Positions 2,274 through 33,223 of a DNA stretch of 64,000 nt are shown here, piece by piece. This DNA comes from Solimonas variicoloris DSM 15731 (GTDB lineage Bacteria > Pseudomonadota > Gammaproteobacteria > Nevskiales > Nevskiaceae). Made by a program: the position numbers and the translations under genes. Positions within the stretch are counted from its first letter, which is position 1. Each line of letters begins with the position of its first letter. The stretch spans positions 62,001-126,000 of the forward strand of contig NZ_KB907928.1 of NCBI RefSeq assembly GCF_000382285.1, in the 5' to 3' direction. Below the pieces are notes generated by a model, which did not search any database, was not told where the DNA came from, and saw only the letters and a list, made by a program, of their open reading frames with translations.

Positions 2274-2300
2274 CGCCGTTCCGTCGGAGGCGGGGCGCGC

Positions 2301-4193: not shown

Positions 4194-4210
4194 ACGAATG
4201 GGGGCGTGCC

Positions 4211-5460: not shown

Positions 5461-5527
5461 ATCCGCCCATGACGCGCGCCCGATCGCGCCGCGTCGTCGG
5501 GCGGCGCGCCGGCGGCGCCTTGGTGCG

Positions 5528-6244: not shown

Positions 6245-6280
6245 GCGAAAATAATAGTCCCTCCGACGTCCCGTCCCGCA

Positions 6281-17564: not shown

Positions 17565-17585
17565 GACTTGCTCCCGATGAGCCGG

Positions 17586-17846
17586 CTACGCGGCCAGCTC
17601 GACCACGTTCTGCAGGCCGAAGAACGTGATGAGGCCGCGCAACTGCGGCGTCGCGTTGATGAACGCCAGCGTCTGGCCCTTGCTGAGGGCGCGACGCCGC
17701 AATTCAAGCAGCAGCGCGGCGCCGGCGCTATCGCAGTGCGTCACACTGGCCAGATCGATCGTGCCGGCGCCGGCGAGTTCGTCGGCGCGCGCGAACCAGC
17801 CTTCGGCGGTCGAGAAGCTCAGCGCGCCGCTGAGCGCCGCGCTCAC
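17586..17846 (-). CDS. mlaB: MlaB, STAS-domain subunit of the Mla ABC transporter
   Basis: An 86-residue STAS-domain cytoplasmic protein that binds and stabilises the MlaF ATPase. The STAS signature is in THCDSAGAALLLELRRRA, with the Asp-Ser at the usual phosphorylation-site position. The start is GTG 17846, overlapping the mlaC stop by four bases (GTGA), which implies translational coupling. Length and position between mlaC and mlaA support the call. Confidence 0.9.
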   Translation of the reverse strand: MSAALSGALSFSTAEGWFARADELAGAGTIDLASVTHCDSAGAALLLELRRRALSKGQTLAFINATPQLRGLITFFGLQNVVELAA

Positions 17847-18526: not shown

Positions 18527-19071
18527 GGATGGACTCCTGGGGTCACACTGTTGTTCTTGTTCTGCAGCGAATCGGCGAGCTTGCCGATCGCATCGGCGAG
18601 CTTGTCGTCCTTCGACTCGCCCTGCGAGGCGAGGAACTGGCCGATCAGGTTCTCGATGACCAGCGCGCTCTGCGTCAGCGTCAGCTCGCTGCCGTCCTTC
18701 AGGTACTCGTCCATGCCGCCGGCCTCGAGGCCGATGTACTGGTCGCCGAGCAGGCCGGAGGTGAGGATCTTGGCGCTGGAGTCCTCGGGAATCTTGTCGT
18801 ACTGCTGGGCGATGTCGAGCGAGACCTTGGCCTGGAAGGTCTGCGGATCGATGTCGATCGCGCGCACCCGGCCGACCTTGACGCCGGCGATCGTCACCGC
18901 CGAGCCGACCTTGAGGCCGCCGATGTTCTGGAACATGCCGCTGACGCGATAGGTCTGGCCGCTGCCGCCGATGTTCTCGAGGCTGGCGACACGGAAGGTC
19001 AGCACGAAGACGGCCGCCACGCCGAGGCACACGAACAGTCCGACGAGGATTTCCAAGGCTCTGGATTGCAT
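18523..19071 (-). CDS. mlaD: MlaD, MCE-domain substrate-binding subunit
   Basis: A 182-residue inner-membrane-anchored MCE protein. A single TM helix lies at about residues 6-28 (LEILVGLFVCLGVAAVFVLT). The MCE domain covers about residues 39-115, with YRVSGMFQNIGGLKVGSAVTI and VSLDIAQQYDKIPEDSSAKI, then LTSGLLGDQYIGLEAGG, where the LLGDQYI segment forms part of the hexamer pore. Located 23 bases after mlaE and overlapping mlaC. Confidence 0.97.
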   Translation of the reverse strand: MQSRALEILVGLFVCLGVAAVFVLTFRVASLENIGGSGQTYRVSGMFQNIGGLKVGSAVTIAGVKVGRVRAIDIDPQTFQAKVSLDIAQQYDKIPEDSSAKILTSGLLGDQYIGLEAGGMDEYLKDGSELTLTQSALVIENLIGQFLASQGESKDDKLADAIGKLADSLQNKNNSVTPGVHP

Positions 19072-19094
19072 GATCGATCTCTAGCCCGAAGCAA

Positions 19095-19865
19095 TTAACG
19101 GAACATGAATGCGGTGAGGACGAAATCCATCGCCAGCACCGAAAGGGAGGACACGACGACGGTCGAGGTGGTGGCGCGCGACACGCCTTCCGAGGTCGGC
19201 GGCGAGTGATAGCCCTGGTAGACCGCGATCCAGCTGACGACGGCGCCGAACACCGTGGCCTTGATGAAGCACTGGTTGAGGTCGTGGATATCGGTATTGG
19301 CGCGGATCTGCGACCAGTAGCTGCCGGCGTCGACGCCGAGCAGGTCGACGGTGATCAGATGGCCGCCGACCACGCCGATCGCCATCACCGAGAAGATCGC
19401 GGTCAGGATCGGCATCGCCAGCAGGCCGGCGATGAAGCGCGGCGCGATGACGTGGCGCATCGGATCGACCGCCATCATTTCCATCGCCGACAGCTGGTCG
19501 GTGGCGCGCATCAGGCCGATCTCGGCGGCCAGCGCCGAGCCGGCGCGGCCGGCGAACAGCAGCGCGGTCACGACCGGGCCGAGCTCGCGGATGATCGACA
19601 GCGCCACCAGCACGCCGACCGAGTCGGCGGCGCCGAAGCGGACCAGCGCGTGATGCGCCTGCAGCGACAGCACCATGCCGATGAACATGCCGCTGATGAC
19701 GATGATGATCAGCGACAGCACGCCGGACATGTAAAGCTGGCGCACGATCAGGCCCGGCCGCAGCAGCGCCGCCGGAACGGCGCGCAGGATGGCGAGGAGG
19801 AAGAACTGCGCGCGGCCGAGGCCGGCGAGGAAGTTGCCGAGCACGGCACCGAGATTGGCGATCAT
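19095..19865 (-). CDS. mlaE: MlaE, permease of the Mla ABC transporter
   Basis: A 256-residue integral-membrane permease. Typical MlaE sequences are FIGMVLSLQAHHALVRFGA, the coupling region ELGPVVTALLFAGRAGSALAAEIGLMRATDQLSAMEMMAVDP, and the TM-rich C-terminus ending LTAFMFR. ATG 19865 overlaps the mlaF stop by four bases. It works with the MlaF ATPase and MlaB/MlaD to move phospholipids across the periplasm. Confidence 0.97.
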   Translation of the reverse strand: MIANLGAVLGNFLAGLGRAQFFLLAILRAVPAALLRPGLIVRQLYMSGVLSLIIIVISGMFIGMVLSLQAHHALVRFGAADSVGVLVALSIIRELGPVVTALLFAGRAGSALAAEIGLMRATDQLSAMEMMAVDPMRHVIAPRFIAGLLAMPILTAIFSVMAIGVVGGHLITVDLLGVDAGSYWSQIRANTDIHDLNQCFIKATVFGAVVSWIAVYQGYHSPPTSEGVSRATTSTVVVSSLSVLAMDFVLTAFMFR

Positions 19866-20692
19866 GCGCTGCCCAGTAGGTCGTCGCGGAGCGACCTGGC
19901 TTTGTAGTGGAAGGCGACCGGGCCGTCGGGTCGCCCCTGCAGGAACTGCTGCACGTACTCCAGCGGCGAGGCGCGGATTTCGTCCGGCGTGCCACGCGCC
20001 AGCACCTGGCCGTTGGCGATCACGTAGGCCTGATCGGCGATCGACAGGACCTCGTCGACGTCGTGCGAGACGATCACGCTGGTGATGCCGAGCGACTGGT
20101 TCAGCGAGCGGATCAGGCGCATCAGCACGCCCATGCTGATCGGATCCTGGCCGGTGAACGGCTCGTCGTACATGACCATTTCCGGATCGAGGGCGATGGC
20201 GCGGGCCAGCGCGACGCGGCGGCTCATGCCGCCGGACAGCTCTTCCGGGTACAGGTCGCGCGCGCCGCGCAGGCCGACCGCTTCCAGCTTCATCAGCACG
20301 ATGTCGCGGATCGCGCTTTCCGGCAGACGCGTGTGCTCGCGCAGCGGGAAGGCGATGTTATCGTGGACGGACAGGTCGGTCAGCAGTGCGCCATTCTGGA
20401 ACAGCATGCCCATGCGCTTGCGCAGTGCGTACAGCTCGCTGCGGCCAAGGCGGTGCACGTTGATGCCGTCGAACTCGACGGCGCCGGCTTCCGGCCGCCA
20501 CTGGCCGCCGATGATGCGCAGCAGCGTGGTCTTGCCGGTGCCGGACGGGCCGAGGATGGCCGTCACCTTGCCGCGCGCGATGTCGACGTCGACGCCGTCG
20601 TAGATCTTGCGCGTGCCGCGGCTGAAATGCAGGCCGCGCACGCGCACCAAGGTGGCGCTGTCGGCGGCGGAGGGCTGCGGAATGGGTGGCAT
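19862..20692 (-). CDS. mlaF: MlaF, ATPase of the Mla ABC transporter
   Basis: A 276-residue ABC ATPase. Walker A is GPSGTGKTT (about residues 49-57), the Q-loop is MLFQNGALLTDLSV, the signature is ELSGGMSRRVALARA, and Walker B is PEMVMYDEPFTGQD with the switch His in IVSHDVDE. The C-terminal extension (YVQQFLQGRPDGPVAFHYKARS) is the MlaF-specific tail that contacts the neighbouring subunit. It is the first gene of the six-gene mla cluster. Confidence 0.97.
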   Translation of the reverse strand: MPPIPQPSAADSATLVRVRGLHFSRGTRKIYDGVDVDIARGKVTAILGPSGTGKTTLLRIIGGQWRPEAGAVEFDGINVHRLGRSELYALRKRMGMLFQNGALLTDLSVHDNIAFPLREHTRLPESAIRDIVLMKLEAVGLRGARDLYPEELSGGMSRRVALARAIALDPEMVMYDEPFTGQDPISMGVLMRLIRSLNQSLGITSVIVSHDVDEVLSIADQAYVIANGQVLARGTPDEIRASPLEYVQQFLQGRPDGPVAFHYKARSLRDDLLGSA

Positions 20693-20784: not shown

Positions 20785-21447
20785 TTAGTCGTGCGTGTGA
20801 ACGGCGTCGTAGCCCAGATGCACCAGCAAGTGGCGCAACAGCGCCTCGCCGGCCGCCTCGACGCTGGCCGGGCCGCCCAGATCGGCCAGCTGCGTCATGC
20901 GCAGACCCTGGTAGCCGCAGGGATTGATGCGCGAGAACGGCTCCAGATCCATCGCCACGTTCAGCGACAGGCCGTGGTAAGTGCGGGCATGGCGGACGCG
21001 CAGGCCCAGCGAACCGATCTTCATGCGCCGGCCGCCGGCATCGTCGACGTAGACACCCGGCGCCTCCGGATCGGCGTAGGCGCGGATGCCGTAGTCGGCG
21101 AGCAGCGCGACCATGCTCTGCTCGATATGCGTCACCAGCGAGCGGATGCCGTAGCCGCGCCGCTTGAGGTCGATCAGGAAGTAGACGACCAGCTGGCCGG
21201 GGCCGTGGTAGGTGACCTGGCCGCCACGGTCGGACTGCACGACCGGGATGTCGCCCGGCATCAGCAGATGCTCCGGCTTGCCGGCCTGGCCCTGCGTGAA
21301 CACCGGCGGATGCTCGAGCAGCCAGATCTCGTCCGGCGTGTCGTCGTCGCGGGCATCGGTGAACGCGCGCATGCGCTCGAACGTGGTCGTGTAGTCGATC
21401 CGGCCGAGGCGGCGGATCAGCGGCGGCACCGCGTTTTCGGGCGTCAT
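20785..21447 (-). CDS. lipB: Octanoyl-[acyl-carrier-protein]:protein N-octanoyltransferase
   Basis: A 220-residue LipB that moves octanoyl from acyl carrier protein to lipoyl domains, the first step of lipoate synthesis. Key segments are [21 protein letters not shown] (residues 74-94), the conserved Lys K143 in [10 protein letters not shown], and the catalytic Cys C177 in RINPCGYQG. Many LipBs have KIAALG where this has KIGSLG, a mild variant. lipA is not in the window. It points away from the divergent fecI-like gene. Confidence 0.97.
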
Positions 21448-21490
21448 CGGGCGGCTTCCACGCGATGCGCGCAGGAGCGCTTACGAGCAG

Positions 21491-21504
21491 GAACGTTCGA
21501 ACGG
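21491..21504. promoter_or_regulatory. GAACGTTYGAAC element, copy 1 (before the FecI-type sigma gene)
   Basis: GAACGTTCGAACGG, 85 bases upstream of the sigma-factor start and 43 bases from the divergent lipB start. The same 14-mer recurs exactly before the first TonB receptor, and a one-mismatch 12-mer in reverse orientation precedes the amine oxidase. It contains the overlapping dyads AACGTT and GTTCGAAC. Confidence 0.6.
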
Positions 21505-21588
21505 TTCATTTCGGAAATCGGTCATGGATCGGCCCGCTTTTTGCGTTTCGGCGAGACGACGACAACGTAGTCGTGTGAGGACGCAGCC

Positions 21589-22167
21589 ATGCAGGCAGTT
21601 GCGAATGCGGTGGTGAACGATGGGCAGCGTGAAATCGCTGATTCCACGCCGCTCGATGCGAAGGCAAGATCGGAAATGGTGCGCCGGCTGTTTCAGGAAC
21701 ACAACCGAGCGCTGATCGGTTTTCTCATCGCCCGCCTGCAGTCCGAAGCCGAGGCCCATGACGTCGCCCAGGAGGCCTATGTGCGGCTGCTCCAGCTCGA
21801 GCAGGCCTCCGCCGTCAGCTTCCTGCGCGCGCATCTGTTCACGATCGCCGGCAACCTGGCGATCGACCGCCTGCGCCAGCGCCGGGTGCGCGAGCGCAAC
21901 TCGCCGCAGGACTTCTTCGAGGACCTGCTGACCCGGCCCGGGCCGGATCGCACCGCGATCGCCCAGCAAGAGATGGGGATCATCAAGCAGGCGCTGCGCG
22001 AACTTCCGGAAAAGTGCCGCCGCGCGTTCATGCTGCATGTCTTCGCGGGCCACAGCGTGCAGGAGATCGCGGCACAGATGAACCTGACCGACCGCATGAT
22101 CCGTCACTATGTCGCGCGCGCCATGGCCACGTGCCGGCAGCGCCTGGATGAAGCCGAAAAAGGATAA
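21589..22167 (+). CDS. FecI-type ECF RNA polymerase sigma factor
   Basis: A 192-residue ECF sigma factor of the iron-starvation/surface-signalling branch. Region 2 lies at about residues 34-105 (LFQEHNRALIGFLIARLQSEAEAHDVAQEAYVRLL, then FLRAHLFTIAGNLAIDRLRQRR). Region 4 lies at about 130-185 (LRELPEKCRRAFMLHVFAGHSVQEIAAQMNLTDRMIRHYVARA). FecI-like sigmas are controlled by the FecR protein encoded next door and usually transcribe the adjacent TonB-dependent receptor. GTGAGGA precedes ATG 21589. Confidence 0.93.
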   Translation: MQAVANAVVNDGQREIADSTPLDAKARSEMVRRLFQEHNRALIGFLIARLQSEAEAHDVAQEAYVRLLQLEQASAVSFLRAHLFTIAGNLAIDRLRQRRVRERNSPQDFFEDLLTRPGPDRTAIAQQEMGIIKQALRELPEKCRRAFMLHVFAGHSVQEIAAQMNLTDRMIRHYVARAMATCRQRLDEAEKG

Positions 22168-22275
22168 AGACGGACGGTCGGCGGCCCGCGCCGTGACGTG
22201 CCTGGCCATGGCACGGCCCGGCGGGATCGTGTGGGCCCCGATAATCTGGAACAATGGCCGTCGGAGGAGCGGCTG

Positions 22276-23367
22276 ATGAATTCCAAGAAAGCGACGACGG
22301 CGCGTCTCGAACAGGCGGCCCTGTGGTGGCAGCGCCTGCGCGAGGAGAGCGTGCGTCCGGAGGAAATCAGCGAGTGGCTCGACTGGTGCCAGCGCGATCC
22401 GGACAATCTGCAGGCTTTCGAGAAGATCGAGGGGCTCGGCGCGCGGTTCGACGCGCTCGACGCCGAGACGCGCGCCGCACTGCTGCGTGAAATGCTCGAC
22501 GAGCCGGCCGCCGAAGCGTCCGAAGCGGCCGAAGCGGCCGCGGCGGCCGTGCCGGCGGCGCCCGTGCGGCGCCGCCACGCCGTGCGCGCGCTGGCGGCCG
22601 GCGTCGCCGCACTGGCGATCGTCGTCGGTGCGTCCTCTTACCTGGGGCGCGGCGGTGAGGCGACGCAGACCGCCTCCTACGTGACCGCCAAGGCGCAGCG
22701 CCAGGATCTGCTGCTCGCCGATGGCTCGCAGGTGTCGCTCGGCGCGGCGACGCGGCTCGACGTCGACTACACGGCGGGCGTGCGCGGCCTGCAGCTCGGC
22801 GACGGCGAGGCTTACTTCGAGGTCGCGCACAATCCGCAGCGGCCGTTCGTCGTGCGCGTCGGCCGTCTGAAGGTCATCGCCGTCGGCACCGCGTTCAATA
22901 TCCGCAAGACCGGCGCGCGCGTCGAAGTGGTCGTCACCCAGGGCGCGATCGACGTCGAGGACGCGGCGCGCGACGCCGCGCTGGCCAGCCAGCAGGCGCG
23001 CCTGCCGAACGACGGCGCGATTCGCGTCGCCGCCGGCCAGCTCGTCGTCACCGAACGCGAAGGGCTGACCGTGCGGCCGGCGGACCGCGAGGCGGCGATC
23101 GCCTGGCAGCGCGGCAGCCTGCAGTTCGTCGACGAAGACCTGTCCGTCGTCGTCGCCAACCTGAACCGCTACAGCCGGCAGGAAGTCGTCATCGCCGACC
23201 GTTCGCTCGACGGTCTGCGCTACACCGGCACCGTCATGCAGGGCCGCGAGGCCGAGTGGCTGGCGGCGATCGGGCAGGTCTTCCCGATCAGCGTGCAGCG
23301 CGACGCGCAGGGCCGCATCAACCTGCAGCGCCGCGAGCTGTCGAGCACGACGCGCAACGCCGGCTGA
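22276..23367 (+). CDS. FecR-family anti-sigma / signal-transduction protein
   Basis: A 363-residue inner-membrane regulator. The N-terminal cytoplasmic part binds the sigma factor (LEQAALWWQRLREESV...EISEWLDWCQRDPDNLQAFEKIE). An Ala-rich stretch follows, then one TM helix (AVRALAAGVAALAIVVGASSYL). The periplasmic FecR domain has VTAKAQRQDLLLADGSQVSLGAATRLDVDY, then GEAYFEVAHNPQRPFVVRVG and VGTAFNIRK. The C-terminus contains a secretin/STN-like segment (VVANLNRYSRQEVVIADRSLDGLRYTGTV). Strong SD (GGAGGAG) before ATG 22276. The sigma stop is 108 bases upstream. Confidence 0.93.
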   Translation: MNSKKATTARLEQAALWWQRLREESVRPEEISEWLDWCQRDPDNLQAFEKIEGLGARFDALDAETRAALLREMLDEPAAEASEAAEAAAAAVPAAPVRRRHAVRALAAGVAALAIVVGASSYLGRGGEATQTASYVTAKAQRQDLLLADGSQVSLGAATRLDVDYTAGVRGLQLGDGEAYFEVAHNPQRPFVVRVGRLKVIAVGTAFNIRKTGARVEVVVTQGAIDVEDAARDAALASQQARLPNDGAIRVAAGQLVVTEREGLTVRPADREAAIAWQRGSLQFVDEDLSVVVANLNRYSRQEVVIADRSLDGLRYTGTVMQGREAEWLAAIGQVFPISVQRDAQGRINLQRRELSSTTRNAG

Positions 23368-23526
23368 CGCGTCGGCGCGGCGCTGCGCCGCGCGTGGGTT
23401 CCCCTTGTTGCCTCAGCGCCCGCGACGGCTCGCGTCGCGGCGTGCCGTGCCGTTCCTTTTCCGTTTCGCGCGTCGTAGCCGTTCCTGAGGCAGGCGGATC
23501 GTCCGCCACCGCATTGGAGCCGCACG

Positions 23527-23742
23527 ATGAGCCGCATCCGGCAACGCCTCAAGAAGTACGTCCTCAACGACACGCGTCCGCAGCGCTGCGCCGCCGCGTT
23601 GGTCCGCAACAGCGCCCCGCGCTGGCCGCAGCCCGGCCTGCCACGCCCGCAGGCCGCGCAGAAGAAGAGGCCCGACCCTGCGCCGACAGCGTGCATCGAT
23701 GCACCGAAGCACGGCGCGCGGGCACCGCGCGCGGGCGCCTGA
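23527..23742 (+). CDS. Doubtful 71-aa basic protein
   Basis: Short frame starting MSRIRQRLKKYVLNDTR, very rich in Arg, Pro and Ala, with a weak GGAG ten bases upstream. I recognise no domain. The first 16 residues look protein-like but the rest could be GC-driven chance. Listed only because the surrounding 500 bases have no other gene. Confidence 0.2.
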   Translation: MSRIRQRLKKYVLNDTRPQRCAAALVRNSAPRWPQPGLPRPQAAQKKRPDPAPTACIDAPKHGARAPRAGA

Positions 23743-23860
23743 GCGCTGCACTGCCGCCATCTGTCACCAGCATGTCGATTTCATTTCCGTTTTCTGCGCG
23801 CCGTCCGTTTTTGATCTCAGGGATGGGTCTGCAAGGCGGGCCCTGGTAACTGAAGCGTCA

Positions 23861-23874
23861 GAACGTTCGAACGG
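23861..23874. promoter_or_regulatory. GAACGTTYGAAC element, copy 2 (abuts the receptor ribosome site)
   Basis: GAACGTTCGAACGG, identical over 14 bases to the copy before the sigma-factor gene. It ends where the GGGAG ribosome site (23873-23877) of the TonB receptor begins, 11 bases before its GTG start. Binding here would act by roadblock or at the mRNA level rather than at a promoter. Confidence 0.6.
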
Positions 23875-23883
23875 GAGTCAGGC

Positions 23884-26481
23884 GTGAGTAAAGTGAATCA
23901 GATCGGAATGGCGATGGAAGCGATGCGGCTGCGTGTGCCGATGCGCAGCTGGGCTTGCGCGCCGCTGGTGTTGTGCGCGGCGCTGACGGCACAGGCTGCC
24001 CACGCAGCCGAAGCCGTGCAGGGCAGCGAAGTGGCGATGGCCGACGCGGCCGCCGAACCCGATGCCAGGATCGAGGAAGTCATCGTCACCGGCACGCGCC
24101 GCACCGGCATGCAGGTGTCGGACAGCCCGGCGCCGGTGCAGGTGCTGAGCGCGGAGACGCTGAAGTCGGCCGGCTCGGCGGATCTCATCGGCTCGCTGGC
24201 GGCGACCGTGCCGTCGTTCACCGCGCAGGCCTTCGGCGGCGACATGGCGAACCAGACGCTGTCGGCGAAGCTGCGCGGCCTTTCGCCGAACCATGCGCTG
24301 GTGCTGGTGAACGGCAAGCGTCGCCACACCACGGCGAACTTCGCGGTGCTGTCCGGCCCGTATCAGGGTGCCTCATCCGCCGATCTCAATTTCATTCCGG
24401 CTTCGGCGATCGACCACATCGAAGTGCTGACGGACGGCGCTGCCGCACAGTACGGTACCGACGCGATCGCCGGCGTCGTCAACATCATCCTGAAGAAGGA
24501 CTACGAAGGCGGATCGGTCGACGGCAGCTACGGCGGCTACAAGGACGGCGGCGGCGAAACGCCGGACCTGTCCGGCAATATCGGCTTCGGCTCCGATGGT
24601 CGCAACTTCATCAATCTGACCGCGGAGATCCGCAATCACGCGAGCAGCGATCGCGGCGACGTCGATCCGCGGGCGGCTTTCGGCATCCACGATCCGGACA
24701 GCTCGCTCTCGACGTATCCGAACACGAACATGGCGCTCGCGCACGGCTATCCGTATCTGAATCACATCATCGGTGATCCGGAGTACCACGCGCAGCTCGC
24801 GATGTTCAATGGCGGCTTCGCGATCGGCGCCGTGGACGCGTACGCGTTCGGCAGCTACGGCAAGAAGAAGGCGGAGTCGTTCGAAAACTATCGCAACCCG
24901 TCGCGTGCCAGCTACACCGACGGCGGCGGCGTGACGCATTACTACTATCCGTTCGGCTTCAACCCGAAGGAAGCGACCGACGAGGAAGATCTTTCGTTCA
25001 CGGCGGGCCTGAAGGGCGAGCTGTTCGATTCGTGGATCTGGGACCTGGCCAGCACCTACGGCAAGGACCGCGTCAAGATCTACACGATCGACTCGCTGAA
25101 CACCGATCTGTACGCGGAGACCGGCGCGTCGCCGACCGACTTCTACGACGGTGCCTACGTGGCGACGCAGTGGACCAACACGCTGGATGTCGGACGCGAC
25201 TTCGAAGTCGGTCTCGCCGGTCCGCTGAACGTGGCGCTCGGCCTCGAACAGCGCTCGGATTCGTACGAGCTCCAGGCCGGCGAGCCGGCGTCCCGCTACG
25301 GCTCCGGCGCTTCGTCGTTCCCGGGCATTCAGCCGGGCGATGCCGGCAGGCATACCCGCGACAACTTTGCCGGTTATGCCGACTTCGCGGTTTCGCCGAT
25401 CGCGGACCTGCAGCTCGACGCGGCGGTCCGCTACGAGCACTTCACCGACTTCGGCAGCACCACGGTCGGCAAGCTGACCGGCCGCTACGACTTCTCGCCG
25501 GCGGTCGCGCTGCGCGGCACGGTCAGCACCGGCTTTCGCGCGCCGACGCTGGCCGAGGAGTACTACTCGGCGACCAACGTCGGACCGACCTCGGCCTTCG
25601 TGCAGATGGCGCCGAACGCACCGGCGGCCGCGCTGCTGGGCCTCGGCAGCGGCCTCAAGCCGGAGAAATCGACGAACTTCAGCTTCGGCGTCGTGCTGCA
25701 TCCGATCGACAAGATGACGGCCACGATCGATGCCTACCAGATCGAGGTGCGTGACCGCATCGTTGGTTCGGGCGCCCTGTACAGCGTCTTCCAGGGCCAG
25801 GATGTGCCGGGGGCCGGCGCGATCTCGGATGCGATCATCGCCAACGGCAATACGCTCGATCCGACCATCAAGACCAGCGGCGGTGACATCGGCATCAATA
25901 TCTTCGCCAACGGTCTGACGACTCGTACCCGCGGCGTCGATGTGGTGGTCGCGTATCCGACTTCGTTCGACTGGGGCAACCTCGACTGGACGCTGAGCGG
26001 CAACTACAACAAGACCGAAGTCACCAATATCAAGGCGAGCCCGTCGGAGCTCGGCGGCCAGTCGCTGTACGACCGGACGGCAATCTCCGATCTCGAAACG
26101 GCGTCGCCGAAATATCGCGTGAATCTGTCGGCGGTGTGGACCTACGGCAAGTTCTCGATCCGTGCCCAGGAAACGCTGTACGGGCAGGCGTCGGAACAGG
26201 TCATGGGTGACGATGGCAACTACTACGAGAACAAGATCGGCGCGACGCCGATCACCGATCTCGAGCTCGCCTTCAAGCCGGTCAAGTCGGTGAAGTTCAG
26301 CATTGGCGCCAACAATCTGTTCAACACCTATCCCGACAAGGTCAATCCCGCGCTGAAGAGCACGTACGTCAGTGCCGCCGACAATCGCTACGACACGGCC
26401 TACGTGACGAAGTACCCGACGTTCTCGCCGTTCGGCTTCAACGGCGCGTACTACTACGGCAAGCTGTCGTACTCGTTCTGA
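23884..26481 (+). CDS. TonB-dependent outer-membrane receptor (no STN domain)
   Basis: An 865-residue TonB-dependent receptor. Start at GTG 23884 with GGGAG six bases upstream. The signal peptide ends near residue 41 (LCAALTAQAAHAAEA). The TonB-box/plug start is ARIEEVIVTGTRR, and the plug covers about residues 60-195 (SPAPVQVLSAETLKSAG, VNGKRRH, IPASAIDHIEVLTDGAAAQYGTDAIAGVVNIILK). The C-terminal barrel ends in YYYGKLSYSF with the usual final Phe. Sequence style matches receptors of Sphingomonas/Xanthomonas type for organic molecules rather than classic siderophores. It has no N-terminal STN signalling domain even though it lies next to FecI/FecR. Substrate unknown; the neighbouring oxidase suggests an amine-containing compound. 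Confidence 0.94.
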   Translation: MSKVNQIGMAMEAMRLRVPMRSWACAPLVLCAALTAQAAHAAEAVQGSEVAMADAAAEPDARIEEVIVTGTRRTGMQVSDSPAPVQVLSAETLKSAGSADLIGSLAATVPSFTAQAFGGDMANQTLSAKLRGLSPNHALVLVNGKRRHTTANFAVLSGPYQGASSADLNFIPASAIDHIEVLTDGAAAQYGTDAIAGVVNIILKKDYEGGSVDGSYGGYKDGGGETPDLSGNIGFGSDGRNFINLTAEIRNHASSDRGDVDPRAAFGIHDPDSSLSTYPNTNMALAHGYPYLNHIIGDPEYHAQLAMFNGGFAIGAVDAYAFGSYGKKKAESFENYRNPSRASYTDGGGVTHYYYPFGFNPKEATDEEDLSFTAGLKGELFDSWIWDLASTYGKDRVKIYTIDSLNTDLYAETGASPTDFYDGAYVATQWTNTLDVGRDFEVGLAGPLNVALGLEQRSDSYELQAGEPASRYGSGASSFPGIQPGDAGRHTRDNFAGYADFAVSPIADLQLDAAVRYEHFTDFGSTTVGKLTGRYDFSPAVALRGTVSTGFRAPTLAEEYYSATNVGPTSAFVQMAPNAPAAALLGLGSGLKPEKSTNFSFGVVLHPIDKMTATIDAYQIEVRDRIVGSGALYSVFQGQDVPGAGAISDAIIANGNTLDPTIKTSGGDIGINIFANGLTTRTRGVDVVVAYPTSFDWGNLDWTLSGNYNKTEVTNIKASPSELGGQSLYDRTAISDLETASPKYRVNLSAVWTYGKFSIRAQETLYGQASEQVMGDDGNYYENKIGATPITDLELAFKPVKSVKFSIGANNLFNTYPDKVNPALKSTYVSAADNRYDTAYVTKYPTFSPFGFNGAYYYGKLSYSF

Positions 26482-26502
26482 GCGTCTGGCGATGTGAGGA
26501 AG

Positions 26503-26528
26503 CGGCGACCTGCGGGTCGCCGTTTCCG
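26503..26528 (+). terminator. Probable terminator after the first TonB receptor
   Basis: Eight-base stem CGGCGACC / GGTCGCCG with a TGCG loop (26503-26522) followed by a broken T-run (TTTCCGTTTCC). It suggests that the oxidase operon has its own promoter. Confidence 0.5.
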
Positions 26529-26636
26529 TTTCCGCGGGGCGAAATGGTTGATTTCCTGTCTTGCGGCGGGTCGGCGGCGTCCTTAGCGTGCGCAGCGGGG
26601 CCTCGTCCGGCGGCAGGCGGATTTCCAACTATCCGG

Positions 26637-26648
26637 GTTCAAACGTTC
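26637..26648. promoter_or_regulatory. GAACGTTYGAAC element, copy 3 (before the amine-oxidase operon)
   Basis: GTTCAAACGTTC on the plus strand, that is GAACGTTTGAAC on the minus strand, one base different from copies 1 and 2. It lies 65 bases upstream of the amine-oxidase ATG in a 232-base intergenic region, a typical operator distance. Confidence 0.55.
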
Positions 26649-26713
26649 AGTTTGGTGCAGCCGCAGCGATGCTCGCGGTTGCCCATCCGTAGTCTTCAGA
26701 AGGGGAGCGATCG

Positions 26714-28315
26714 ATGAGTTCTGGAAGTGCGCCGAGGGCCATCAGCCGGCGCGAGTTGCTGACGCTGATCGGCAGTGTCGCGGGCAGCGCCGTGTCGTAT
26801 CAGGCGATGGCCGGCATGGGCCTGGTGTCCGAGTCGAATTACAAGGGGCCGATCAAGCTCGAAGGCAATCCGAAGGGCGCTTCGGTCCTGATCCTCGGCG
26901 CCGGGCTTGCCGGCATGGTCGCGGCGATGGAACTGCGCAATGCCGGCTACAAGGTGCAGGTGCTGGAGTACAACAACCGCGCCGGCGGCCGCAACTGGTC
27001 GCTGCGCGGCGGTGATACGTACACGGAGCTCGGCGGCTTCACGCAGAAGTGCGAGTTCGATCCGGGCCTGTATCTGAACCCGGGTCCGTGGCGCATCCCG
27101 TATCACCATCACGGCGTGCTCGACTACTGCCGCCGGCTCGGCGTCGCGCTCGAACCCTTCGTGCAGGTCAACTACAACGCGATGGTGCATTCGACGCAGG
27201 CCTTCGGCGGCAAGCCGCAGCGCTATCGCGAGATCCAGGCCGACTACCACGGCCAGATCGCCGAACTGCTGGCCAAGGTCACGCAGCAGAAGAAGCTCGA
27301 CGAGCTGGTCAGCGCCGAGGATCAGGAGATCCTGATGGCCTCGCTCAGACAGTGGGGCGCGCTCGACAAGCACTACCGCTACGTGCCGGGCCGCGATTCG
27401 AGCGAGCGCCGCGGCTACGAGAAGCCGCCGGCGGGCGGCCTGTCCGGCAAGCCGGTCTACTCGAAGGACATCACCGGCCTCTCCGAGCTGCTGAAGTCGG
27501 AGCTCTGGGGTTCGATCGGCGCCGGTCACGGCTACGAGTTCCAGACCACGCTGTTCCAGCCGGTCGGCGGCATGGGCCGCATCGGCGATGCGTTCAAGCG
27601 CGAGGTCGGTGATCTGATCCGCTACAACGCCAAGGTCATCAAGATCCACCAGGACCGCAAGAAGGTCACGGTCACTTACGTCGATCCGAAGAGCGGCGGC
27701 GCGCCGCAGACGGCGACCGCCGACTACTGCCTGTGCACGATCCCGCTGTCGGTGCTGAGCCAGATCGAGCTCAACGTCAATCCGAAGATGCAGGCGGCGA
27801 TCAATGCCGTGCCGTACGAGGCATCGGTGAAGGTTGGCCTGCAGTTCAAGCGCCGCTTCTGGGAGCAGGACGAGCACATCTACGGCGGCATCAGCTACAC
27901 CAATCTGCCGATCCGCCTGATCGGCTATCCGAACACCGATTACCACAGCGCCGGCAAGGGCGTGCTGCTCGGCGCCTACGTGTTCGGGCCGAACGCCTAC
28001 GAGTTCACCGCACTGCCGCCGGCGGAGCGCGTGAGGAAGGCCTACGAGTACGGGGCGATGATCCATCCGCAGTACCAGCAGGAGTTCGAGACCGGCATCG
28101 CCGTCGGCTGGCACCGCGTGCCGTGGACGCTCGGCTGCGCCGGCGCCTGGACCGAGGCGAGTCGTGCGCAGCACTACGACAATCTCTGCCAGCTCGACAA
28201 CCGTTTCCTCGTCGCCGGCGAGCACGCGTCGTACATCCCGGCCTGGCAGGAGGGCGCGATCCTGTCGTCGCTCGACGCGATCCAGCGTCTGCACCAGCAC
28301 GTCGTCAACCGCTAA
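26714..28315 (+). CDS. Tat-exported flavin-dependent amine oxidase
   Basis: A 533-residue flavin monoamine-oxidase-family protein. The N-terminus has a twin-arginine signal (ISRRELLTLIGSVAG, R12-R13), so the folded FAD enzyme should be exported. The FAD motif VLILGAGLAG (G62-x-G64-x-x-G67) is followed by VLEYNNRAGGRN. The C-terminal flavin-binding block is FLVAGEHASYIPAWQEGAILSS. GGGGAG precedes ATG 26714. It is followed within 13 bases by a cytochrome c gene, a strong hint that cytochrome c rather than oxygen takes the electrons, as established for NicA2 and its partner CycN. The FAD fold is certain; the amine substrate is not known. Confidence 0.9.
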   Translation: MSSGSAPRAISRRELLTLIGSVAGSAVSYQAMAGMGLVSESNYKGPIKLEGNPKGASVLILGAGLAGMVAAMELRNAGYKVQVLEYNNRAGGRNWSLRGGDTYTELGGFTQKCEFDPGLYLNPGPWRIPYHHHGVLDYCRRLGVALEPFVQVNYNAMVHSTQAFGGKPQRYREIQADYHGQIAELLAKVTQQKKLDELVSAEDQEILMASLRQWGALDKHYRYVPGRDSSERRGYEKPPAGGLSGKPVYSKDITGLSELLKSELWGSIGAGHGYEFQTTLFQPVGGMGRIGDAFKREVGDLIRYNAKVIKIHQDRKKVTVTYVDPKSGGAPQTATADYCLCTIPLSVLSQIELNVNPKMQAAINAVPYEASVKVGLQFKRRFWEQDEHIYGGISYTNLPIRLIGYPNTDYHSAGKGVLLGAYVFGPNAYEFTALPPAERVRKAYEYGAMIHPQYQQEFETGIAVGWHRVPWTLGCAGAWTEASRAQHYDNLCQLDNRFLVAGEHASYIPAWQEGAILSSLDAIQRLHQHVVNR

Positions 28316-28328
28316 GGAGCCGGGCCAG

Positions 28329-28760
28329 ATGAGCATTCACGCAAAAGCGCTGTTCGCGCTCGTGTTCGCGGCCGTCGCCGGCGGCGCGCACGCGCAGGCC
28401 GACCTGACGTCGTCGACCATTTTCAGCAGCGGCTACTCGTTCGAGGAGCAGGACGGCGAGTCGCTGTACAAGGGCATCTGCCAGGGCTGCCACATGCCGG
28501 ACGCCCAGGGTGCGACCGGTGCCGGCACTTATCCGGCGCTCGCCGCCAATCCGCGTCTGGCGGCCAGGCAGTATCCGATGGTGCTGGTCGTCAACGGTTC
28601 GCGCGCGATGCCCGGCTTCGGCCGCGCCCTCAGCGACGAGCAGGTGGCCGCCGTCGTCAATTACGTGCGCACGCATTTCGGCAACAACTACCCGGATAGC
28701 GTGGCGCCTGCCGAAGTGCAGGCGCTGCGTCCCAAGACCGCTTCAACAGGAGAGGAATGA
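28329..28760 (+). CDS. Periplasmic c-type cytochrome (class I)
   Basis: A 143-residue monohaem cytochrome c. The signal peptide ends at about residue 22 (GGAHA-QA). The haem site is C51-QG-C54-H55 and the likely axial Met is M94 in SRAMPGFG. The C-terminal helix is LSDEQVAAVVNYVRTHFGN. It starts 13 bases after the oxidase stop with a GGAG-type site, and its TGA overlaps the next ATG. Likely electron acceptor of the upstream oxidase, delivering to the respiratory chain. Confidence 0.92.
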   Translation: MSIHAKALFALVFAAVAGGAHAQADLTSSTIFSSGYSFEEQDGESLYKGICQGCHMPDAQGATGAGTYPALAANPRLAARQYPMVLVVNGSRAMPGFGRALSDEQVAAVVNYVRTHFGNNYPDSVAPAEVQALRPKTASTGEE

Positions 28761-29263
28761 TGATCAAGAAACTGCTGACCACCGCCGCCCTCGGCGCCAC
28801 GCTGCTGACCGCCGTGCCGGCTCTCGCCGGCGACAAGGGCGTGGTCATCTACAACCCGAAGAAGGCGCCGATCGCCTCGGCGGTCGAGGTGCCGGCCGGC
28901 AAGACCCTGGTGTTCCTGTCCGGCAAGCTGTCGCAGGACATTGTCGACCCGAAGGCGCCGAAGGATTCGCCGGCGTCGCTCGGCAACACCGAGATGCAGA
29001 CGCTCGGCACGCTCAAGGTCATCGAGGCCGAGCTGAAGTCGATGGGTCTCGGCATGAAGGACGTCGTCAAGATGACGGTGTTCCTCGCCGGCGATCCGGC
29101 GATGGGCGGCAAGCTCGACTTCGGCGGCATGATGAAGTCGTACACGAAGTTCTTCGGCACGCCGGAACAGCCGAACGTGCCGGCGCGCTCGACGGTGCAG
29201 GTCGCGGCGCTCGCCGGTCCGCAGTTCCTGGTCGAAATCGAAGTCATGGCCGTGCGCCCGTAA
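28757..29263 (+). CDS. RidA-family (YjgF/YER057c) protein with a signal peptide
   Basis: A 168-residue Rid-family protein. The family core is intact: AVEVPAGKTLVFLSGKL, EMQTLGTLKVIEAELKSMG, VVKMTVFLAGD. The catalytic Arg is in VPARSTVQVAAL and the conserved Glu in LVEIEVMAV. RidA hydrolyses reactive enamine/imine products of amino-acid enzymes, normally in the cytosol. Here residues 1-24 form a clear Sec signal peptide (LLTTAALGATLLTAVPALAG), so the protein should be periplasmic, matching the exported oxidase that would produce imines. AGGAGAGG precedes tandem ATGs at 28757 and 28760; the first overlaps the cytochrome stop. A strong terminator follows. Confidence 0.93.
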   Translation: MMIKKLLTTAALGATLLTAVPALAGDKGVVIYNPKKAPIASAVEVPAGKTLVFLSGKLSQDIVDPKAPKDSPASLGNTEMQTLGTLKVIEAELKSMGLGMKDVVKMTVFLAGDPAMGGKLDFGGMMKSYTKFFGTPEQPNVPARSTVQVAALAGPQFLVEIEVMAVRP

Positions 29264-29286
29264 GCGCTCGCCAGCGGGCACCAGGA

Positions 29287-29317
29287 CGCGCGGCCGCACG
29301 GCCGCGCGTTTTTTTTT
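29287..29317 (+). terminator. Rho-independent terminator of the amine-oxidase operon
   Basis: Nine-base stem CGCGCGGCC / GGCCGCGCG with a GCAC loop (29287-29308), followed by nine T residues. It ends the oxidase-cytochrome-RidA unit. Confidence 0.92.
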
Positions 29318-29367
29318 GCGTCCGCCGACGCCTCGTCGTGGCCTGCGATTTGCATCTGAGGTAGGCG

Positions 29368-32010
29368 ATGACCCGCCGCGGGCGGGCGATGCAGCCGATC
29401 GGTGCGCCCGCCGCAGGCTGCCGTAGGTGCATGCACGTGACCGGTGCGAGCGTGGGCGGCACAGCGAGAGCAGTGACCATCGGAACGGACGGCGAGCGGC
29501 AGGCGCGGCGGCGGGCCAGGATGTCCTGGGCCGGTCTGCTGCTGCTCGCGCTGGGCAGCCCGCTCGCGCACGCTGATCTCGCCAGCGAAAGCGATTTCCG
29601 CATCGCGCCGCAGTCGCTGGCGACGGCGCTGACCGCGTTCTCCGAGCTGACCCACATCCAGATCGTCACCGCGGCCGCCGACCTGCGCAGCCTGCGCTCG
29701 CCGGGCGTCATGCAGCGCGTGACGGCGGCGGCGGCGCTGCAGGCGCTGCTGCGCGGCACCTCGCTGCATTTCCAGGTGGTCGGCGCCGATACCGTGGTGA
29801 TCGTCGCCGACGCCAGCGAGCCCGCGCCGCCGCCGCCGCCATCCCCCGATGCGTCCGAGCTGATCGACGACCTGCTGGTGATCGGGCACGGCTACACGCG
29901 CGCCTCGAACACGCTGGCGCCGCGTGATGCGCCGGCGCGCCTGGGCGGGGCTCCGGCGCAGGCGTTTCTGGCCGAGCTGCCGGGTGTCAGCGTGCAGAAC
30001 AGCGATCCGTTCGGACTCTACGAATTCGGCAATTCGCTGCGCATCCGCGGCTTCTCGAGCGAGCAGGTCGGGACTTCGCTCGACGGCGTGCCGCTGGAGA
30101 CCTACGACGTGCGCGACGGCAGTCCGCCGGAGCGCTTCGTCGACAGCGAGGAGCTGTCGACGGTGACCGTCGCGCAGGGTTCCGGCGACGTGATGATGCC
30201 CTCGTATCACGCGCTCGGCGGCTCGGTGCGCTATTTCACCGCCGAGCCCGGCGGTGACTGGCACGCGGCGCTGTCCTCGGTGATCGGCAGCAACGACCTG
30301 ACGCGGCTCTACGCGCGGCTCGACACGCCGCCGTGGTGGGCCGGCGGTCCGATCGCCTACGCGAGCGCCTCGCGCACGCGCGCCGTGCAGTTCGACAATT
30401 CGCGCGCGGAAATGGCGGTCGACCACGCCACGTTCAAGCTGCGCCAGGATTTCGCGCTCGGCAGCGCGCTGCTCAGCTACCGCTACGGCCAGCGCGACGA
30501 TCACGACATGCAGGACTACGACGCGCGCGGCCGCGTCGCGACGAGCTTCGACCTGCTCGAGCGGCCGACCGGCGATGCCGAGCGCGATGCGCTGTACTAC
30601 GGCTACTGGACCAACGGCCGCACCGACCACCTGCTGAGCCTGCGCTGGGAATCCGAACTGGCCGCCGGCTGGAAGCTGGATGCGCTGCCGTACTTCGAGC
30701 ACAAGCGCGGCTACGGCTATGCCGGCGTCGCGCCGTCGGCCGCGATCTCGCAATACGACGAGGCGACGTCCGCCGACACCGGCGTGCCCGGACGCACCGA
30801 CATCGTGCCGTACGACGGCAGCGGCATCACCCAGCGCCTGGAATCGCTCAAAGGCGACCGTCGCGGCCTGACGCTGGGCCTGCGCTACGAGGCCTGGCGC
30901 CATACGGTGCAGGCCGGCGGCTGGATCGAGCGCTACCGCTTCGCGCAGGACCGGCCGCTGTACAACGTTGACGACGACGGCCACATCGAGGACGGCGCCG
31001 CGCCGATCGTCGTCTATTACGATCGCCACTACGACACGCGGGTCGCGCAGTACTACCTCAAGGACAGCAGCCGCTGGTTCGACGCCCGGCTGCAGCTCGA
31101 CGTCGGCTTCAAGGGCCTGTACGTCGACCGCGAATTCCACGGCATTCCGAACCGCGATGCGTTCAACCTGCAGCAGCTGGCGCGTATCGCGCGCGTCGAC
31201 CGCGACGCGTTCCAGCCGCAGCTCGGCCTCACCTATCGGCTCGACGAGGTGTTCGAACTGTTCGGCAATTACGCCGAGAACTTCAGCACCGCGCCGCGCA
31301 ACGCGATCGGCTCGGTCACCTACGATCCGCGGCTGCGGCCGGAGACCTCGCACAATATCGACCTCGGCCTGCGCGGCCACGGCGAGCGCTTCAGCGCCGC
31401 GCTGTCGATGTATTACATCGACTACGCGCATCGCATCCTGACGCTGACCGTCACCAACCCGTACCGGATCAGCGAGGAGGTTTATCGCAACGTCGGCTCG
31501 ATCCGCACCTGCGGCGTCGAGGCGGCATCGTTCTGGAAGCCGGCGCGCGGCTGGCGCCTCGGCTCGACGCTGTCGCTGAACCGCTCGCGCTTCCAGAGCG
31601 ACTACGAGCGCTACGACGCGGCGCTGCAGGAAACGATGACGGTGTCGGTGGCCGGCAAGGCGCTGCCGGACACCCCGGACCTGATGGCGAGCCTCGGCGT
31701 GCAGTATCGCCGCGGCGGCCTGTCGGCGAGCGCCGAGGCCAAGTACACCGGCCGCCGCTACTCGACCGCGACCAACGACGAGCACGTGCCCGGCAATACC
31801 GTGGTCAATGCCGCGCTTGGCTACGAATTCGCGGCGGCGCGCGCGCAGGGGGCCGGCCTGCAGCTGCAGCTCACCGTCCACAATCTCTTCGACGAGCACT
31901 ACATCGGCTACATCTCGCCGTCCGAGTTCGTCGACAACGACAACCACGGCAGCTTCCGGCTCGGCGCGCCGCGCAGCGTGTACCTGAGCCTGGCGATGGA
32001 CTGGCGCTGA
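29368..32010 (+). CDS. TonB-dependent receptor with N-terminal STN signalling domain (FecA-type)
   Basis: Up to 880 residues. ATG 29368 has GAGGTAGG upstream but gives a long leader; ATG 29521 (MSWAGLLLLALGSPLAHA) would give a standard signal peptide. Next is an STN domain (FRIAPQSLATALTAFSELTHIQIVTAAADLR, about residues 70-145). A Pro-rich linker follows, then the plug (LAELPGVSVQNSDPFGLYEFGNSLRIRGF, SVTVAQGSGDVMMPSYHALGGSVRYFTAEP) and the barrel, which ends in Leu-Ala-Met-Asp-Trp-Arg. STN domains pass substrate occupancy to FecR-type proteins. The only FecI/FecR pair nearby is six genes upstream. Substrate unknown. Confidence 0.92.
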   Translation: MTRRGRAMQPIGAPAAGCRRCMHVTGASVGGTARAVTIGTDGERQARRRARMSWAGLLLLALGSPLAHADLASESDFRIAPQSLATALTAFSELTHIQIVTAAADLRSLRSPGVMQRVTAAAALQALLRGTSLHFQVVGADTVVIVADASEPAPPPPPSPDASELIDDLLVIGHGYTRASNTLAPRDAPARLGGAPAQAFLAELPGVSVQNSDPFGLYEFGNSLRIRGFSSEQVGTSLDGVPLETYDVRDGSPPERFVDSEELSTVTVAQGSGDVMMPSYHALGGSVRYFTAEPGGDWHAALSSVIGSNDLTRLYARLDTPPWWAGGPIAYASASRTRAVQFDNSRAEMAVDHATFKLRQDFALGSALLSYRYGQRDDHDMQDYDARGRVATSFDLLERPTGDAERDALYYGYWTNGRTDHLLSLRWESELAAGWKLDALPYFEHKRGYGYAGVAPSAAISQYDEATSADTGVPGRTDIVPYDGSGITQRLESLKGDRRGLTLGLRYEAWRHTVQAGGWIERYRFAQDRPLYNVDDDGHIEDGAAPIVVYYDRHYDTRVAQYYLKDSSRWFDARLQLDVGFKGLYVDREFHGIPNRDAFNLQQLARIARVDRDAFQPQLGLTYRLDEVFELFGNYAENFSTAPRNAIGSVTYDPRLRPETSHNIDLGLRGHGERFSAALSMYYIDYAHRILTLTVTNPYRISEEVYRNVGSIRTCGVEAASFWKPARGWRLGSTLSLNRSRFQSDYERYDAALQETMTVSVAGKALPDTPDLMASLGVQYRRGGLSASAEAKYTGRRYSTATNDEHVPGNTVVNAALGYEFAAARAQGAGLQLQLTVHNLFDEHYIGYISPSEFVDNDNHGSFRLGAPRSVYLSLAMDWR

Positions 32011-32036
32011 ACGAGCGTGCGCGGCTCGCGCCAACG

Positions 32037-32062
32037 AAAACGGCGGCCACCAGGGCCGCCGT
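32037..32062 (-). terminator. Rho-independent terminator for dacC (minus strand)
   Basis: Stem ACGGCGGCC / GGCCGCCGT with a five-base loop (32040-32062); on the minus strand it is followed by TTTTCGTT. Located between the convergent receptor and carboxypeptidase genes. Confidence 0.7.
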
Positions 32063-32080
32063 CGGGTGCCGCGAACGCGC

Positions 32081-33223
32081 CTACCAGCCGAACCAGAGGC
32101 GGATCGTGTCGATCAGGCGGTGGAAGAAGCCGCCCTGCTCGACGTCGGCGAGCGCGACCAGCGGCACGCTCTTCAGCGTCTTGCCGTCGAGCGTGATCGT
32201 CGCCGTGCCGAGCGTCTGGCCCTTGGCCAGCGGCGCGACGATTGGGGCGTTGACGGTGGCGGCGATCTGCACGCGCTCGGCGTTGCCGCGCGGCAGCGCG
32301 AGCGCCACCGGTTCCAGCGTGCCGATCGCGATGCTGTCGGTCGCGCCCTTGTAGACGCGCGCCGTCTGCGCCGGCTTGTCCGGGCCGAACAGGCTGGTGG
32401 TGTCGAAGAAGCGGAAGCCGTAGTTCAGCAGTTCGAGGCTGGCCTGTTCGCGGTAGGCCCAGCTCTTGGTGCCCATCACGGCGGCGATCAGGCGGCGGCC
32501 GTCGCGCTGCGCCGAGGTCAGCAGGCAGTAGCCGGCCTCGGAGGTGTGGCCGGTCTTGATGCCGTCGATCGAAGGGTCGCGGCCGAGCAGCAGATTGCGG
32601 TTCGGCTGCTTGATCTTGTTGTAGACGAACTCGCGCTCCGAGAACAGCTTGTACCAGTCCGGGAAGTCGTGGATCAGCGCGCGCGCCAGGATCGTCAGAT
32701 CGCGGGCCGTGGTGTAGTGGTTCGGGTCCGGCAGGCCGGAGGCGTCGGCGAAGTGCGAGTTCTTCATGCCGAGCTTTTGCGCGTACTGGTTCATCAGATC
32801 GGCGAACACCGGCTCGCTGCCGGCGACGTGCTCGGCGACCGCGAGCGTCGCGTCGTTGCCCGACTGGATGATGATGCCGCGCATCAGGTCGATCAGCTTC
32901 ACGCGCGAGCCGACCTGGATGAACATGCGCGACTCGCTGGAGTCGATGCCCTGGCGCCAGGCTTTCTCGCTGATCAGCACCTCGTCGTCCGGCGACAGGC
33001 GCTTCTGGGCGATCTCGTCGAACACGATGTAGCTGGTCAGCACCTTGGTGATGCTGGCCGGGGCGACGCGCTGGTCCGGATTGGACGCCGCGAGCAGCTC
33101 GCCGCTGGCGTAGTCCATCAGCGCGTAGGCGGTGGCGTCGATGGCCGGCGGATCGGGGATCGCGGCGGCGTGCGCCAGCGGTGCGGCGAAAGCGAGAACG
33201 GTGGCGAGTAGCAGCTTTTTCAT
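32081..33223 (-). CDS. dacC: Serine-type D-Ala-D-Ala carboxypeptidase (PBP5/6 family)
   Basis: A 380-residue penicillin-binding protein that trims the terminal D-Ala from peptidoglycan pentapeptides. Signal peptide 1-19 (LLLATVLAFAAPLAHA). The active-site motifs are S57-ITK-60, S121-GN and K223-TG. The C-terminal PBP5-type beta domain runs to an amphipathic end (GGFFHRLIDTIRLWFGW) that would anchor it to the membrane surface. It follows rlpA on the same strand, a common proteobacterial arrangement. I cannot choose between the dacA and dacC names from sequence. Confidence 0.95.
   Translation of the reverse strand: MKKLLLATVLAFAAPLAHAAAIPDPPAIDATAYALMDYASGELLAASNPDQRVAPASITKVLTSYIVFDEIAQKRLSPDDEVLISEKAWRQGIDSSESRMFIQVGSRVKLIDLMRGIIIQSGNDATLAVAEHVAGSEPVFADLMNQYAQKLGMKNSHFADASGLPDPNHYTTARDLTILARALIHDFPDWYKLFSEREFVYNKIKQPNRNLLLGRDPSIDGIKTGHTSEAGYCLLTSAQRDGRRLIAAVMGTKSWAYREQASLELLNYGFRFFDTTSLFGPDKPAQTARVYKGATDSIAIGTLEPVALALPRGNAERVQIAATVNAPIVAPLAKGQTLGTATITLDGKTLKSVPLVALADVEQGGFFHRLIDTIRLWFGW

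Follow-up and report, generated by a model that had tools for sequence, protein, structure and literature searches.

The locus described here lies in the window, a stretch of 64,000 nucleotides of Solimonas variicoloris DSM 15731 (contig NZ_KB907928.1, positions 62,001 to 126,000), numbered from its first letter. It encodes a flavoenzyme with a twin-arginine translocation (Tat) signal, called LAO after its gene lao, an exported cytochrome c and an exported Rid protein. Judged by its relatives and gene neighbourhoods, it is probably a periplasmic module of the lao-cccA-ridA kind that oxidises L-amino acids, is coupled to the cytochrome, works with a Rid3-type protein and is joined in Solimonas by TonB-dependent receptors and a FecI/FecR pair. 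The trio at its core is already known, and the wider unit with the TonB receptors is the part that deserves a test. The features of the locus, including an extracytoplasmic function (ECF) sigma factor, are as follows.

21589..22167, plus strand: ECF sigma factor, FecI-like (Pfam Sigma70_r2/r4_2; NCBIfam sigma70-ECF above its cut-off)
22198..23367, plus strand: FecR-like anti-sigma factor (PF04773, PF16220; an internal ATG may be the true start)
23884..26481, plus strand: TonB-dependent receptor 1, putative importer (PF00593, PF07715; STN domain not found)
26714..28315, plus strand: lao, Tat-signal L-amino-acid oxidase/dehydrogenase (533 aa; PF01593; N-terminal stretch ..SRRELLTLIG..; best PDB match 2jae)
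28329..28760, plus strand: exported monoheme cytochrome c (143 aa; CQGCH; PF13442/PF00034)
28757..29263, plus strand: exported Rid3-type imine deaminase (168 aa; PF01042; best PDB matches PFL1385 and PSPTO3006)
29283..29312, plus strand: intrinsic terminator-like hairpin (13 pairs with a T run)
29368..32010, plus strand: TonB-dependent receptor 2, STN-bearing, FecA-like transducer (PF07660 STN, PF07715, PF00593)

The lao, cytochrome c and Rid genes are adjacent and co-directional. A gap of 13 nucleotides separates lao from the cytochrome gene, and the Rid ATG at 28757 overlaps the cytochrome TGA (28758-28760). Open reading frames and domains thus agree with a preliminary description of this DNA, which had reported a Tat flavoenzyme followed by these two exported partners. 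The strong terminator that it placed behind them corresponds to the hairpin of the list, but the hairpin scan gave 2 hits versus 1.6 +/- 1.4 in shuffled sequences, so that it is the strength of this hairpin that speaks for it. No sigma-70-type site was found in a scan of positions 26400-29450, in which no ECF promoter analysis was made. The unit as first drawn (26714-29263) does contain the trio but is too narrow, since the sigma/FecR genes (21589-23367) and the two TonB receptors, none of which had been mentioned, travel along in Solimonas.

The kinship of LAO was examined by sequence and by fold. Among the 60 of 98 matches listed from a PDB sequence search, the best solved relative was the L-amino acid oxidase (LAAO) of Rhodococcus opacus (2jae, E 1.2e-85), followed by snake and reconstructed vertebrate LAAOs (6e-42 to 2e-34). 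L-glutamate oxidases reached 1e-20 at best, monoamine oxidases about 1e-13, and three entries titled merely 'Amine oxidase' (8eef, 8eej and 8een) about 3e-10. No nicotine enzyme was present by name among these listed matches, and NicA2 itself was not compared. In the same way, a fold search with the structure model of LAO (mean pLDDT 75, against 55-64 for the four remaining models; alignment of 28 rows) gave the R. opacus enzyme as its first three matches (E 1e-45). Of the 50 matches listed out of 1861, ranks 4-32 were taken by oxidases of L-amino acids, L-glutamate or L-lysine, and monoamine oxidase A came at rank 33. LAO and the R. opacus enzyme share 36% identity over 488 columns. When sampled LAOs were aligned with the latter, R127, K373 and W511 were kept in 30/30, and the position of Y422 held Tyr in 27/30 and Phe in 3/30. 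From the R. opacus structure we take R127 to be the substrate-site arginine, W511 an active-site tryptophan and K373 the flavin-side lysine, these residues and Y422 presumably serving in carboxylate and flavin binding. Because of the LAAO kinship by sequence and fold and of the retained substrate-site residues, an amino acid rather than an amine is most likely the substrate. The amine substrate of the preliminary description is therefore abandoned. So is its NicA2-type oxidase: sequence, fold and active-site positions all favour LAAOs, which score far above every other listed match, the comparison being one that did not include NicA2 directly.

The two partners carry the marks of their families. 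In the cytochrome, the heme Cys, Cys and His and a downstream Met-Pro are invariant in 13 aligned rows. The Rid protein matched PFL1385 and PSPTO3006 at about 2e-33 in the PDB search, and other Rid proteins at 4e-8 or weaker. Its catalytic Arg (R144) and Glu (E160), together with I39, are present in 25/25 Rid hits from 24 loci; some Rids missed the P.RS pattern in one scan, and the later alignment shows that their Arg is kept. I39 would occupy the position of the RidA Tyr, an Ile for a Tyr. PFL1385 and PSPTO3006 belong to Rid3, and both reduce imine trapping in assays with snake L-amino acid oxidase (PMC5619798); genes of RidA, and sometimes of Rid3, cluster with FAD amine oxidase genes (PMC5619798, PMC4433059). 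The window protein shares with this subfamily the imine deaminase class and differs by a signal-peptide-like N-terminus, the words 'signal' and 'periplasm' being absent from the main text of PMC5619798.

Co-occurrence of the three genes was followed in two sets of genomes. The first comprises 86 loci, that is the best 80 genome loci listed and 6 plasmid loci from 39 matching plasmid records, and represents near kin since only best matches were kept. In this set, a CXXCH cytochrome adjoins LAO at 85/86 loci (the exception is L087), a Rid gene lies within 4.5 kb at 48/86 and a twin-arginine motif was detected by regular expression at 77/86. Start codons were picked there partly to favour hydrophobic N-termini and, for this reason, the cytochrome and Rid signal peptides of the set are not independent evidence. 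Two Xanthomonas loci gave identities to the window of 63-64% for LAO, 50% for the cytochrome and 60-64% for Rid. On plasmids, a Deinococcus radiodurans locus (L005, 5553-7937) has an LAO homologue whose cytochrome gene is upstream and not downstream, and a Microvirga locus (L003, 4362-5765) has an M20-family peptidase gene directly upstream of the trio, a hint of peptide-derived substrates.

The second set drew more widely on 398 Pseudomonadota genomes, in which LAO was called at E <= 1e-60 and up to 6 kb was scanned on each side. It yielded 31 LAO homologues at 30 loci in 27 genomes. An adjacent cytochrome was found at 23/31 (20 monoheme and 3 diheme), a Rid gene within 5 kb at 25/31, both at 18/31, and cytochrome, Rid and TonB receptor all together at 9/31. 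From these counts in both sets a chance neighbourhood of the trio was rejected, and the preliminary description's expectation of co-occurrence in other genomes was borne out. The idea of the cytochrome as a constant partner of LAO was likewise rejected, given its absence at 8/31. Some loci are particular: two LAOs at L129 have one Rid and one receptor in common, the LAO of L180 has neither cytochrome, Rid nor receptor nearby, and L123, scored as cytochrome-free, carries a 114-aa CXXCH open reading frame unmatched by the profile.

The presence and kind of cytochrome follow the phylogeny of LAO. On a tree of 30 of the 31 LAOs and the R. opacus enzyme, itself a long branch, the 20 monoheme, 3 diheme and 7 cytochrome-free LAOs each form one side of a branch, and the cytochrome state requires 2 changes versus a shuffled mean of 9.3. 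In the diheme loci (L135, L136 and L137), a cytochrome with two CXXCH motifs lies between LAO and Rid, with PF00034 matched twice in L135 and L136; it is a second kind of partner in a separate LAO branch. In two near copies from one genus (L127 and L128), the Tat signal of LAO is degraded: it keeps the RR pair but has charged residues in its hydrophobic stretch. Their Rid lacks a signal peptide, and no open reading frame with CXXCH was found below 260 aa. The two loci combine lost export with a missing cytochrome.

Within Solimonas, the trio is part of an accessory island of seven genes, in the order ECF sigma factor, FecR, receptor 1, LAO, cytochrome, Rid and STN receptor 2, at a site that varies within the genus. 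The island splits lipB (named by eye) from dacA in the window (20785-33223), in Solimonas flava DSM 18980 (L012), whose LAO is 98% identical and which is the closest named relative among the matches listed, and in the genomes G404 and G405. LAO was found at this site in 5/10 same-genus genomes, all five with sigma factor, FecR, receptor 1 and LAO on the lipB side. All seven genes are present in G404, G405 and G407; in the last of these, the 4.3 kb past the island showed no dacA. Genome G398 holds three LAOs, two cytochromes and three Rids in one island (L202, G398:C1:88500-105500, 2016-9728), its receptor 2 being cut by the end of the examined stretch. In G400 the distance between lipB and the sigma gene is 8 kb, and LAO is cut by the end of the examined stretch. 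One additional LAO occurs elsewhere in the genomes of G404 and G398. In the other 5/10 genomes, no LAO was detected at 1e-60 and dacA directly adjoins lipB.

TonB receptors are also found near LAO outside Solimonas. One lies within 5 kb at 15/31 LAOs, as detected with a profile built in part from LAO-adjacent receptors, versus 3.9 expected by chance from the receptor density of first-look candidates in the 27 genomes, an expectation that ignores kinship. Receptor 1 has a match at 1e-30 in 21/27 LAO-bearing genomes and, in 13 of these 21, the window included, the best match of the genome lies within 5 kb of LAO (compared by hand). On a receptor tree of 42 rows, 11 LAO-adjacent rows including receptor 1 form one clade (support 100/99). 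In two Xanthomonas loci the receptor gene ends about 20-65 bases upstream of LAO, a distance that varies with the start codon assigned to LAO. The joint presence of ECF sigma factor, FecR and STN receptor gives the window the gene content of FecI/FecR/FecA-type surface signalling. Two Hydrocarboniphaga loci have the wider unit in a different gene order and without Rid and, in Hydrocarboniphaga sp. L015, an STN domain is also present in the receptor downstream of LAO. No description of a TonB or FecI/FecR link to LAO was found in the open-licence literature, a scope that leaves out most subscription journals, and both the tie between TonB receptor and LAO and the seven-gene island beside lipB in Solimonas are possibly new.

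The core trio itself was reported in 2016 as the lao-cccA-ridA cluster of Gluconacetobacter diazotrophicus (GDI2456-2455-2454; PMC5053998), and the statement in the preliminary description that no described system joins all three therefore falls. According to that paper, two Tn5 insertions in lao abolish indole-3-acetic acid (IAA) and leave tryptophan unused, reverse transcription quantitative PCR (RT-qPCR) shows lower transcripts of lao, cccA and ridA in one mutant, and the cluster is conserved in Caulobacter and Xanthomonas. It also refers to mutants in ccm (cytochrome c maturation) that retain 5% of the IAA, and proposes that cytochrome and RidA act together with the LAAO (PMC5053998). The two clusters share the same three families, with a Tat-signal LAAO, a cytochrome c and a Rid. 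They differ in that the G. diazotrophicus LAAO, with a predicted Tat signal of 38 residues, is also predicted to have at least three transmembrane domains, and the text of PMC5053998 contains neither 'TonB' nor 'receptor'. Peptides encoded by its six RT-qPCR primers, each read by eye in one of three frames, resemble motifs of the window families (YPSHGYF and QVIHPNY for LAO; AIYQHV, a weak match, and NYVRSH for the cytochrome; ASTIYL and KLGKID for Rid), a comparison confined to these primer-encoded peptides.

Other known systems resemble the locus in part. The NicA2/Pnao-CycN kind has in common with it the Tat signal, the flavin amine oxidase (FAO) fold and an operonic monoheme cytochrome c, and differs in that the window enzyme has LAAOs as its nearest kin. 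A study from 2025 found that many FAOs with a Tat signal and an operonic cytochrome c are cytochrome-using dehydrogenases and that these two features predict dehydrogenase function well in the clades tested (PMC12224317). Its clade 1 has a diheme cytochrome, as do 3/31 LAOs here, and its text contains neither 'Rid' nor 'amino acid oxidase'. In Chlamydomonas, periplasmic LAO1 and LAO2/RIDA, described in a paper that cites the G. diazotrophicus cluster, similarly bring together a periplasmic LAAO and a RidA partner and yield ammonium, keto acids and, from tryptophan, IAA; this system is eukaryotic and forms hydrogen peroxide, and no cytochrome c partner is mentioned in the sections of the paper drawn on here (PMC10805672). 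Finally, the R. opacus LAAO (2jae, 2jb1) is the closest solved structure, and its Arg, Tyr, Trp and Lys positions are kept in the window enzyme. It is an oxygen-using enzyme.

From these likenesses, the following sequence of events can be proposed. The Tat-exported FAD enzyme would take a hydride from an L-amino acid, or from a compound with a free alpha-amino acid group, and give an imino acid. The reduced flavin would be reoxidised mainly by the cytochrome c of the operon, with electrons passing on to terminal oxidases, and LAO would on this proposal be a dehydrogenase and not chiefly a peroxide-making oxidase. With the help of the exported Rid3, the imino acid would then be hydrolysed faster, leaving a 2-oxo acid and ammonium. 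In Solimonas, the substrate probably crosses the outer membrane by way of receptor 1. Expression of the set is probably induced when the STN-bearing receptor 2, acting with FecR and the ECF sigma factor, senses a ligand outside the cell. The analysis itself establishes which genes are present, their sequence signals and conserved residues, how often they occur together and how the island is built. We infer the substrate class, the acceptor and the imine hydrolysis from the protein families and the literature; the cargo of the receptors and the targets of the sigma factor are conjecture. The preliminary description had likewise favoured a dedicated cytochrome as acceptor and imine hydrolysis as the role of Rid. 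Both seem likely, and all three proteins bear signals for export. In favour of the proposal as a whole are the LAAO kinship of the enzyme, the co-occurrence with cytochrome and Rid, the agreement of cytochrome state with the LAO tree, the catalytic Arg and Glu of Rid, the TatC and COX1-family matches in the genome, the TonB receptors near LAO and the published work on lao and ccm mutants (PMC5053998), on Tat-signal FAOs with a cytochrome c (PMC12224317) and on Rid3 proteins (PMC5619798).

Several observations weigh against this proposal. A Rid gene is missing nearby at 38/86 near relatives and at 6/31 LAOs of the wider draw, and one of the LAOs without cytochrome (L126) nevertheless has a Tat signal, an exported Rid and a TonB receptor. 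The model loop that holds R127 (residues 125-130) has a pLDDT below 50, and the conserved flavin-side K373 makes reactivity with oxygen possible. In PMC12224317, reaction with the partner cytochrome was only modest for the pairs of clade 1, and the B. anthina enzyme showed reactivity with oxygen as well; since its set came from NicA2 BLAST hits, its rule is an extrapolation for the LAO branch. As to the receptors, 16/31 LAOs have none within 5 kb. Adjacency to LAO takes 6 changes on the receptor tree, so that receptors were recruited by LAO loci more than once; a single clade of LAO-specific TonB receptors was rejected on this ground, though 11 of the 42 rows clade together. FecI/FecR homologues lie near 1/31 LAOs, that of the window itself, and among the other loci examined they accompany LAO in Solimonas and Hydrocarboniphaga only. 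FecI/FecR/STN systems are, in general, best known from iron uptake.

This last point bears on an alternative in which the FecI/FecR/TonB genes serve ordinary uptake of iron or siderophores, have nothing to do with amino-acid oxidation and only happen to occupy the same insertion site. It is a possibility of real weight, though it is not the one we favour. There is a weak resemblance of receptor 2 to FecA and to ferripyoverdine receptors and of receptor 1 to enterobactin-type receptors, and a fur box was reported upstream of a 15-gene group, nuoA-N plus lao, in G. diazotrophicus (PMC9368920). Against this, the unit holds together across Solimonas genomes and reappears, rearranged as described, in the two Hydrocarboniphaga loci, and TonB receptors exceed expectation near LAO across the phylum. 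A role of the locus in making a product instead of in nutrition, for instance the conversion of tryptophan to indole-3-pyruvate and IAA known from G. diazotrophicus, seems improbable. The loss of IAA in lao mutants and the smaller rice roots after inoculation with one of them (PMC5053998) speak for it, as do the many plant-associated genera among the near relatives in the 86-locus set; the cytochrome-bearing homologue of D. radiodurans does not fit, and the island with multiple copies of LAO (L202) hints that there is more than a single substrate.

The nature of the enzyme has two further alternatives. LAO could be a true periplasmic L-amino acid oxidase that uses oxygen and makes hydrogen peroxide, the cytochrome c disposing of the peroxide or being a minor acceptor. 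The closest solved relatives are indeed named oxidases, Lys373 is kept, and 7 of the 8 homologues without a nearby cytochrome have a Rid. We consider this unlikely nonetheless. On the LAO tree a single branch sets apart the 20 LAOs with monoheme cytochrome, that of the window included, and none of the LAOs on that side is cytochrome-free; in addition, PMC5053998 cites a loss of IAA in G. diazotrophicus when ccm is mutated. Less probable still is the version of the preliminary description, a dehydrogenase of the NicA2 type whose substrate would be an amine lacking a carboxylate. The gene signature of a Tat FAO with cytochrome c is the same (PMC12224317), and a review on nicotine names, in a figure legend, rid (Rid6), cytC and a TonB receptor as genes of the clusters that it compares (PMC7688666). 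LAAOs are nevertheless nearest by sequence and fold, with Arg127 and Tyr422 kept as counted above.

The rest of the genome contains one more PF01042 match, of 127 aa and without evident signal peptide. One TatC match, 4 COX1-family matches (cytochrome and quinol oxidases pooled) and 31 TonB barrel matches were also counted. On the minus strand of the window, genes at 16845-20692 resemble an Mla-type phospholipid transport set, as named by eye from translations.

The counts make a loosely described cluster a measurable module. The monoheme, diheme and cytochrome-free enzymes, on separate branches, offer a natural comparison set for how a flavin enzyme trades oxygen for a cytochrome. More tentatively, the cytochrome-paired enzymes of the LAAO branch may be a separate lineage of amino-acid flavin dehydrogenases that, with a TonB receptor, form a route from outer membrane to respiration for a bulky amino-acid-bearing compound, with Rid clearing the imine and, in Solimonas, induction by a ligand through FecI/FecR. 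If the link to TonB receptors is real, the oxidation of amino acids in the periplasm would be coupled with active uptake across the outer membrane.

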